Assembly (NCBI GenBank): GCA_003331565.1
Contig: QOPE01000003.1
Coordinates: 1 to 35,802, forward strand
Length of the DNA: 35,802 nt
Direction: 5' to 3'
From: SAR86 cluster bacterium
GTDB lineage: Bacteria > Pseudomonadota > Gammaproteobacteria > Magnimaribacterales > D2472
Both the position numbers and the translations under genes were made by a program. The notes beneath the pieces are model-generated. The model was given only the letters and a program-made list of their open reading frames with translations. It searched no databases and had not been told where the DNA came from. Shown here piece after piece: positions 34,326-35,802 of the stretch; the stretch's first letter is position 1, and every line of letters begins with the position of its first letter.

Positions 34326-34735
34326 TGAATAAACTGAGTAAAACATCGCATCATCTAAGTGTTTGCTCAGCTAACTATCGAAGAATAAGAAAAATTCTTC
34401 CAGGCTTTGCTAAACAAGAATATAAATTTTTGCTTGACGAAACAGATGTTACTGCAAGCTTTAAAATTATTGATAAACAAAATCATACACTTTTAATTGA
34501 ATCAGCTCAGTCTACTTCTAACTCAATAATGGAGTTTAAATTTAGATTACAAATCTTCTTAGATGCAAGACTTGCAGAGGTTGTTTCATTCCAGAATGAG
34601 AAGCCAGTTCCATTCTATGTAAGCAAACCTCGATCTCAATCATTGGATGAGAAATATCAACAGAACCGTATGCTGTGTGAGTGGCTGGAATATATTCTGC
34701 TTAAAGGGAGGGTTAAATCTGATTTTCTTCCATGA
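34325..34735 (+). CDS. yqiB: YqiB family protein (DUF1249)
   Basis: A 136-aa cytoplasmic protein of the DUF1249 family. Characteristic features are the N-terminal CSANYRRIRKILPGF, MEFKFRLQIFLDARLAEVVSFQNEKP, and the C-terminal DEKYQQNRMLCEWLEYIL. Its function is unknown. In E. coli it lies between nudF and cpdA upstream of yqiA; here it is directly joined to yqiA with a 4-bp overlap and cpdA is absent. The start overlaps the DUF482 stop as TAATG. Confidence 0.93.
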   Translation: MNKLSKTSHHLSVCSANYRRIRKILPGFAKQEYKFLLDETDVTASFKIIDKQNHTLLIESAQSTSNSIMEFKFRLQIFLDARLAEVVSFQNEKPVPFYVSKPRSQSLDEKYQQNRMLCEWLEYILLKGRVKSDFLP

Positions 34736-35313
34736 AGAATATCTTATACCTACATGGATTTGCATCTTCGTCTGATTCCACAAAAGCTAAGCTTTTCAAA
34801 GAGTTCGTTAACTCACATAAAAATCTCAATGTTCTAACGCCAGATCTTCCAAATAATCTAATAGGTTGGTCAAGCCTTATTGAGGAATTGTGTGAAAGGC
34901 ACAATCCTGTTGCTTTTATCGGCAGCTCAATGGGTGGATTCTATTCAACTTTCTTTGCAAGAAAGTTGGGTGCTATGGATGTTCTTTTAAATCCTGCTGT
35001 TTTGCCAGCAGAGGGCATGAAAAGTTATCTTGGAAAAAATAATAACTATGCAACAGGTGAAGAATTCGTAATGAAGAATGATGAAATAGAGCACCTTAAA
35101 TTGATGGAAAAAAAGATTAAAAAAAATAACTATGCTAACGACAGGACAATGGTCTTATTGGAATCAGGCGATGAAGTTCTTAATTACAAAGAGGCAGTTA
35201 GTTTCTATTCGGGTGCACATATTAAAATTATTTCTGGTGGCAGTCATTCGTTAGAGAGTTTCAGTGATTATCTAGATTTAATATTGAAATTCATTATTTT
35301 TGCACTAAAATAG
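34732..35313 (+). CDS. yqiA: YqiA-like alpha/beta-hydrolase (UPF0227 esterase)
   Basis: A 193-aa alpha/beta-hydrolase of the YqiA group; E. coli YqiA has esterase activity on short acyl substrates, but the natural substrate is unknown. It opens ILYLHGFASSSDSTKAKLF (oxyanion HGF). The nucleophile elbow is IGSSMGGFYS, DEVLNYKEAVSFY holds the acidic residue, and ISGGSHSLESF the catalytic histidine. NPAVLPAEGMKSYLG is also diagnostic. It overlaps yqiB by 4 bp. The stop codon TAG falls inside the NtrC-type palindrome that controls the next gene. Confidence 0.93.
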   Translation: MKNILYLHGFASSSDSTKAKLFKEFVNSHKNLNVLTPDLPNNLIGWSSLIEELCERHNPVAFIGSSMGGFYSTFFARKLGAMDVLLNPAVLPAEGMKSYLGKNNNYATGEEFVMKNDEIEHLKLMEKKIKKNNYANDRTMVLLESGDEVLNYKEAVSFYSGAHIKIISGGSHSLESFSDYLDLILKFIIFALK

Positions 35314-35317
35314 TGCA
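35301..35317. promoter_or_regulatory. NtrC-type binding site 1
   Basis: TGCACTAAAATAGTGCA is a perfect 17-bp palindrome that fits the NtrC consensus TGCACCA-N3-TGGTGCA, with T for C at the sixth position of each arm. Symmetry extends one more base each side (TTGCACTA/TAGTGCAA, 35300-35318). It overlaps the yqiA stop codon and is centred about 94 bp upstream of the predicted sigma-54 start site, within the usual range of enhancer positions. Confidence 0.85.
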
Positions 35318-35330
35318 ATTTATTGTATAA

Positions 35331-35347
35331 TGCACAAATATATGGCA
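35331..35347. promoter_or_regulatory. Possible weak NtrC-type site 2
   Basis: TGCACAAATATATGGCA keeps the left half-site TGCAC but the right half is only partly matched (TATGGCA). Its centre is 30 bp downstream of site 1, close to three helical turns, so both would face the same side of the DNA, much like the paired sites at enterobacterial glnA. By itself the match would not be persuasive. Confidence 0.45.
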
Positions 35348-35376
35348 TTTAATGACCAATATTAGTGCAAAATGTA

Positions 35377-35392
35377 TGGCACATAGATTGCA
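35377..35392 (+). promoter_or_regulatory. Sigma-54 (RpoN) promoter for the glutamine synthetase gene
   Basis: TGGCAC-ATAGA-TTGCA matches the -24/-12 consensus TGGCAC-N5-TTGCW exactly, with GG (35378-35379) and GC (35390-35391) at the required spacing. Predicted transcription start is about 35403, giving a 33-nt leader that contains a strong AAGGAG ribosome-binding site (35424-35429), six bases before the ATG. Confidence 0.9.
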
Positions 35393-35435
35393 TAATATTT
35401 ATTAGTTATTTAGTTAATTCTATAAGGAGAATATT

Positions 35436-35802
35436 ATGAATACATATGAATATATTTGGCTAGATGGATACACTCCTGAAGCAAATATGCGAAGTAAAGT
35501 AAAAGCTACCGATGAAGATACAGCTCCTGATTGGTCTTTTGATGGTTCGTCAACGCAACAAGCAGAAGGAGGAAGTTCAGATTGTCTTCTCCTACCTGTT
35601 CAAACTTATGAAAACTCTAATGGGCATGACTTAGTAATGACTCAGGTTCAGTCGGCAGATCATACTACTCACCCATCTAATTTTAGAGCTGCAGCTGCGG
35701 AGGTGGTTACAGATGAGTGGTGGTTTGGGTTCGAGCAAGAATTTTTCTTTACTGATCCAAATACAGGAGAGCCTTTAGGTTGGGAAGACGGAACTCCCAA
35801 AG
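35436..35802 (+). CDS. glnII: Type II (eukaryote-type) glutamine synthetase, 5' part
   Basis: Assimilates ammonium by ATP-dependent conversion of glutamate to glutamine. Not in the ORF track because the gene runs off the right edge; the visible 122 codons contain no stop. The N-terminal beta-grasp domain shows YEYIWLDGYTPEANMRSK, the GSII signature WSFDGSSTQQAEGGSSD, and the catalytic start FGFEQEFFF (GMEQEY in eukaryotes). This form (about 340-370 aa) differs from the ~470-aa GlnA of most gammaproteobacteria. The strong Shine-Dalgarno, sigma-54 promoter and NtrC-type sites upstream indicate induction under nitrogen limitation, as known for rhizobial glnII. Confidence 0.93.
   Translation, partial: MNTYEYIWLDGYTPEANMRSKVKATDEDTAPDWSFDGSSTQQAEGGSSDCLLLPVQTYENSNGHDLVMTQVQSADHTTHPSNFRAAAAEVVTDEWWFGFEQEFFFTDPNTGEPLGWEDGTPK

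Follow-up and report, generated by a model that had tools for sequence, protein, structure and literature searches.

The locus considered here raises the question of how a SAR86-order bacterium controls its type II glutamine synthetase, glnII. The window, meaning the whole stretch of DNA analyzed, is a complete contig of 35,802 nucleotides (QOPE01000003.1, here G000:C23) from an 801-kb assembly that is 59% complete, and its end cuts glnII after 122 codons. Comparison of this fragment with other genomes places its nearest relatives among single-cell and metagenome genomes of the SAR86 cluster (AG-917-F05 and TMED104 among them), at 97-98% identity. The region just 5' of the gene, positions 35300-35435, is interpreted here, with a probability of roughly 0.9, as an NtrC/sigma-54 control region of working type for a predicted glnII-ntrB-ntrC operon.

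The elements that suggest this interpretation lie in close succession. NtrC-type enhancer site 1, TGCACTAAAATAGTGCA (35301-35317), is a perfect palindrome with 0 mismatches and no second match in the window, and its center lies about 93 bp 5' of the predicted transcription start. Two weaker NtrC-like sites follow, each with 3 mismatches: site 2, TGCACAAATATATGGCA (35331-35347), centered 30 bp from site 1, and site 3, TGACCAATATTAGTGCA (35353-35369); no strand is assigned to any of the three. On the forward strand, the sigma-54 promoter TGGCACATAGATTGCA (-24 TGGCAC, -12 TTGCA) occupies 35377-35392, where the pattern TGGCACATAGATTGC(A) is matched with 0 mismatches and for the only time in the window. 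Transcription is predicted to start at 35402-35404, about 12 bases 3' of the -12 GC; the Shine-Dalgarno sequence AAGGAG, read directly, stands at 35424-35429; and glnII (PF03951) runs from its ATG at 35436, 43 bp beyond the promoter end, to 35802. An earlier sequence-only reading of this DNA had already proposed the palindrome, the exact promoter and the Shine-Dalgarno sequence, all of which are borne out. It had also placed a weaker copy of the palindrome 30 bp away on the same helical face; the copy is there, but 30 bp amounts to 2.9 turns and the shared face is approximate only. Site 3 had escaped that reading.

Chance is a poor source of such an arrangement. In a first-order Markov simulation (20 Mb, with the window's composition), scaled to 35.8 kb, exact matches to TGCAC-N7-GTGCA are expected 0.03 times per window (0.002 for the 14-base form) and exact matches to TGGCAY-N5-TTGCW 0.06 times per strand per window, while the joint expectation for a palindrome and a promoter within 150 bp of each other is 1.7e-5; each was seen exactly once. 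Position weight matrices (PWMs) for sigma-54 and NtrC were also scanned across the complete genome of a congener, G005. Because NtrC PWM matches there are no commoner than in Markov genomes, a regulon cannot be called from palindromes alone, and the claim made here rests on the combination, placement and conservation of the elements, not on a lone palindrome.

Conservation was followed at two levels, among six congeners (five close genomes of the same genus and the more distant G005) and across 203 genomes of the SAR86 order, whose families f1-f4 and genera g1-g19 are working handles. The half-sites TGCAC and GTGCA and the fixed N7 between them are invariant across the six congeners, with differences confined to the central bases; in the close congeners, 14 of the 17 columns of site 2 and the right half of site 3, AGTGCA, do not vary. 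A gap-free alignment of the control region in six genomes of the genus, this one included, shows TGGCA, TTGCA, the Shine-Dalgarno sequence and a TATAAT to be invariant as well, and 98 of 122 intergenic columns are constant in these genomes, compared with 66 of 100 third codon positions of the upstream open reading frame (ORF). In G005 the NtrC and promoter elements have been re-formed at another distance from the ATG, and the TATAAT is not kept. More widely in the family, outside genus g7, a -24/-12 element (strict or in a TGGTA variant) is found 50-63 bp 5' of glnII in 25 of 31 genomes; it is kept across g1-g4, g6 and g8-g10, and five of the six genomes without it belong to genus g5. Genus g9 carries the NtrC palindrome twice per glnII promoter, and in the sampled genera that lack a full-length rpoN, glnII has no -24/-12 pattern. 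The sequence-only reading is supported, its enhancer and promoter being conserved in the genus and recurrent across the family.

Much of the corresponding machinery is also present. A search of the genome for rpoN, whose absence would have spoken against sigma-54 control, recovered a full-length gene on contig C33, with the activator-interacting, core-binding and DNA-binding domains (PF00309, PF04963 and PF04552) all over cut-off and a product that passes TIGR02395 (282.6 against a cut-off of 277.4). The parallel search for glnB or glnK found a PII gene on contig C2 (G000:C2:22169-22486; PF00543, 116 bits). A full-length congener GlnII protein, 98% identical to the window fragment, finds its best NCBIfam match in NF041605 over positions 4-321, with 356 bits, below the strict equivalog cut-off of 500 bits. 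In all six congeners the order is glnII-ntrB-ntrC, with ntrB, a sensor-kinase ORF, lying about 1.0 kb and ntrC about 2.1 kb downstream of where glnII begins, and each congener has exactly one bacterial enhancer-binding protein (bEBP), the product of this ntrC, with the L1 loop GSFTGA in 6/6. The NtrC of congener G003 passes TIGR01818 (NR(I); 634 bits, cut-off 559), and the best match of its NtrB is NR(II), at 234 bits just under the cut-off of 240.

From the observed DNA elements, their conservation, the genome's own rpoN and PII genes and the ntrBC genes of its congeners, we infer NtrC binding, activation, a response to nitrogen, a transcript start and read-through along the operon. Under nitrogen shortage NtrB would phosphorylate NtrC, which would bind all three sites, the strong one and the two weaker ones, at roughly 40-95 bp 5' of the start. 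The NtrC ATPase, with the GSFTGA loop of the congeners, would open the closed complex of sigma-54 RNA polymerase at the -24/-12 element, raising the level of glutamine synthetase II and also that of NtrBC, which would regulate its own synthesis.

Several observations weigh against this interpretation. Neither ntrB nor ntrC, nor any bEBP, was found in the 801 kb assembled from a genome recovered to 59%; in family f2 and genus g5, glnII has no strict -24/-12 element despite the presence of rpoN and a GAFTGA-type NtrC; and site 1 both covers the final codons and the stop codon (35311-35313) of the upstream ORF, an alpha/beta-hydrolase-like frame from the ORF list (34732-35313, forward strand), and is scored by a prediction tool as a weak hairpin resembling a terminator. 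The missing ntrBC is best read as a contig break, because the contig ends within glnII, where ntrBC follows in 6/6 congeners. Matches to PF00158 in the genome itself were rejected as bEBP candidates; they are weak (E 3e-6 and 1e-4), fall in one 754-residue frame and are read as a ClpB-like AAA+ protein.

The alternative that survives best, itself improbable, holds that the main nitrogen-responsive promoter is of the sigma-70 type, formed by the TATAAT at 35326-35331 (forward strand) between sites 1 and 2; NtrC would then repress or act as a class-II activator, and the -24/-12 element would play a minor part. The invariance of this hexamer (6/6 columns in the six genomes), the NtrC half-sites that family f3 places 24 bp from an extended -10, and the glnII genes of f2 and g5 all lend it something. 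Yet the TATAAT has neither a usable -35 nor a properly placed extended -10, and a promoter scan did not report it; G005 does not keep it, while the exact -24/-12 element of the window is retained, strict or as TGGTA, in the same genera in which NtrC keeps G(A/S)FTGA (g1-g4, g6 and g8-g10). Within NtrC/sigma-54 control, the TATAAT is, as a hypothesis only, a candidate sigma-70 -10 of a housekeeping promoter that NtrC would occlude, as at E. coli glnAp1.

Still less probable is that the palindrome serves as the terminator of the hydrolase gene, leaving the sigma-54 promoter as the only regulatory element. The hairpin was picked up by a terminator scan together with a T-rich tail, where shuffled sequences yield an expectation of 0.0, and the hydrolase stop lies inside it. 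However, it has only three G-C pairs, and the conserved unit is TGCAC-N7-GTGCA with a fixed N7, not a stem with a variable loop, occurring twice per promoter in g9; termination by the hairpin may in any case coexist with NtrC binding. The least probable proposal, that the sites are chance matches or unused relicts of an ntrBC loss in this strain, draws on the lack of a bEBP in the assembly but is countered by the incompleteness of that assembly, by the contig end just where ntrBC is expected from the congeners, by the intact -24/-12 element and half-sites, and by the finding that the lineages that did lose ntrC, g7 and f4, carry no such elements.

The sequence-only reading also called for a search for further sites of both kinds, and the outcome is divided: other intergenic sigma-54 sites exist, but in G005 only the glnII promoter has NtrC palindromes nearby. 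The best sigma-54 score in that genome falls upstream of a TorF-type porin-glnK-amt operon (G005:C1:572255-574495), whose site has no clear NtrC palindrome and whose transporter is matched by TIGR03644, a family of marine ammonium transporters; intergenic sites with high scores are also found at two TonB-receptor genes. Among these high-scoring sites glnII alone is accompanied by palindromes (20.0 and 12.7 bits), the others reaching at most about 0. Given one bEBP per genome, NtrC may also act at the remaining sigma-54 promoters, by way of weaker sites or directly from solution. In the window's own genome, the three inspected loci with a one-mismatch TGCAC-N7-GTGCA yielded no further promoter, and of the four exact sigma-54 patterns found elsewhere, three were set aside as lying inside ORFs. 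Separately, TGGCATTAATATTGCA is conserved in the genus about 47 bp 5' of a TonB-receptor-like gene (L120, at G000:C1:7029; L130; L132; L145).

Judged by its sequence, the finding in the window is real and ordinary, the head of a predicted NtrC/sigma-54 glnII-ntrBC operon of SAR86; unlike this finding, its order-wide context is unusual and merits follow-up. In family f3, no full-length rpoN was found in genera g12, g15, g16 and g19, and a TGCAC half-site precedes an extended -10 (TGnTA) by exactly 24 bp at 17/17 glnII genes checked, as against 0/35 in f1. The NtrC L1 loop reads GAFTGA in g12 (6/6 matched) and in six g19 genomes, GAFAGA in two others of g19 (L172, L173) and GAFKGA in 15 of 16 genomes of g15 (e.g. 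L067, L068, L069 and L081). In g16, a genus without rpoN, the gene in the place of ntrC (L096, L070; about 2.18 kb downstream of the start of glnII) encodes 256 residues with a REC domain and a Fis-type helix-turn-helix (HTH), the AAA+ domain having been deleted in frame in both genes read. By these sequences, the f3 NtrC has decayed in stages, from GAFTGA through GAFAGA and GAFKGA to a protein stripped of its whole AAA+ domain. In a tree of GlnII proteins, f1 and f3 are intermingled and the succession of events is not resolved; the state of f2 and g5 suggests that promoter change can precede the loss of sigma-54. As a side observation on the same enzyme, the glnII genes of Pelagibacteraceae (L216, L218, L219, L225) are about 89-91% identical to that of SAR86 and lie directly behind the apparent end of a PII gene, at loci without an NtrC site or riboswitch; gene exchange between SAR11 and SAR86 is possible.

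Sigma-54 itself has left a remnant in two of these genera. In ten genomes of g12 and g19 (L117:2856-3092; L159-L167), an ORF of 75-80 residues is found either in the lptB-mgtE interval or immediately behind lptB, and its product, a "mini-RpoN", matches nothing but the final 60 positions of PF04552 and the solved RpoN domain 2o8k/2ahq. Because nonsynonymous change (dN) is far below synonymous change (dS) and third codon positions vary most, it is taken to be a maintained protein under purifying selection. A search of G038 for a split sigma-54 found no N-terminal half beside mini-RpoN or in the 400 kb searched.

A different outcome is seen in genus g7 and family f4. Neither rpoN nor NtrC was detected in g7 (0/10 for rpoN, 0/10 for an NtrC of GAFxGA pattern, and 0/5 for PII among genomes checked) or in f4 (0/21, 0/21 and 0/9, respectively), and lptB and mgtE, the flanks of rpoN elsewhere, adjoin in three g7 loci read. 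Directly upstream of glnII these lineages carry RF01739 glutamine riboswitches with aptamers scoring 62-71 bits, in tandem in 4/4 g7 regions read (L072, L073, L087, L089) and singly in the six f4 regions with a full leader (L102, L104-L107, L116); the leaders of the two lineages are 72-79% identical. Among 55 regions from relatives scanned, only g7 and f4 leaders matched at glnII, and an aptamer scan of the window found no RF01739. The riboswitch presumably lowers rather than raises glnII expression. A TCCTGCA conserved before AGGAG in these leaders suggests masking of the Shine-Dalgarno sequence, which one computed fold did not show. Glutamine riboswitches also occur in tandem in the window's own genus (L332, at G005:C1:1244354-1244467; L337; L338); the G005 pair lies about 300 bp 5' of a 778-residue lipoprotein-like ORF, unrelated to glnII.

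It is an even bet, on these comparisons, that the switch was dismantled while its pieces were kept working. The f3 NtrC would have become a sigma-70 activator, the RpoN-box of two f3 genera an independent DNA-binding protein put to a new use, and the PII-NtrBC-sigma-54 cascade of two other lineages would have given way to glnII riboswitches. On the reading favored for the window, a genome-reduced, largely uncultured ocean lineage retains classical enhancer-dependent nitrogen control. Its clade places glnII under four predicted regimes: sigma-54 with NtrC; a promoter of sigma-70 type with an NtrC half-site; the same type of promoter with NtrC reduced to a REC-HTH remnant; and a riboswitch. The SAR86 order thereby offers a natural experiment in the dismantling of gene control, in which the survival of an AAA+ enhancer-binding protein after sigma-54 loss and the role of a lone RpoN-box domain are now testable. 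A literature search returned no paper on sigma-54 control or a glutamine riboswitch in SAR86, the names SAR86 and sigma-54 co-occurring only in a study of oil degraders.

The closest known counterpart of the window's control region is glnALG of E. coli with its promoter glnAp2, where glnA, ntrB and ntrC follow one another, TGCAC-N7-GTGCA palindromes lie upstream of a -24/-12 promoter, and PII proteins and a GAFTGA-type NtrC take part. SAR86 shares the palindromes before -24/-12 and PII and, in the congeners, the order of glutamine synthetase, ntrB and ntrC and a single NtrC of this type. Unlike in E. coli, the enzyme is of type II and not type I, the enhancer sites lie nearer the start (about -93, -63 and -41), and the congeners have one bEBP per genome. 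For the f3 genera, the precedent is the NtrC of Rhodobacter capsulatus and Caulobacter, which lacks GAFTGA and acts with sigma-70 (PMC10274813). The f3 proteins resemble it in that their L1 loop departs from the normal form, reading GAFKGA in g15 and GAFAGA in two genomes of g19, beside a sigma-70-like glnII promoter; in contrast to the loop deletion of those species, f3 shows point substitution and loss of full-length rpoN, and in g16 deletion of the whole AAA+ domain. The type 1 glutamine riboswitch RF01739 was described from cyanobacteria, and uncultured marine sequences had been the only source of its association with glutamine synthetase genes (PMC6316151); the clade now offers hosts for such links, identified as SAR86-order genomes without rpoN, ntrC or PII. 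Finally, the truncated RpoN of Neisseria includes forms without the DNA-binding domain (PMC12316311), and the mini-RpoN of g12 and g19 is likewise a sigma-54 gene cut to part of its domains; unlike the Neisseria forms, it retains only the RpoN-box DNA-binding domain.
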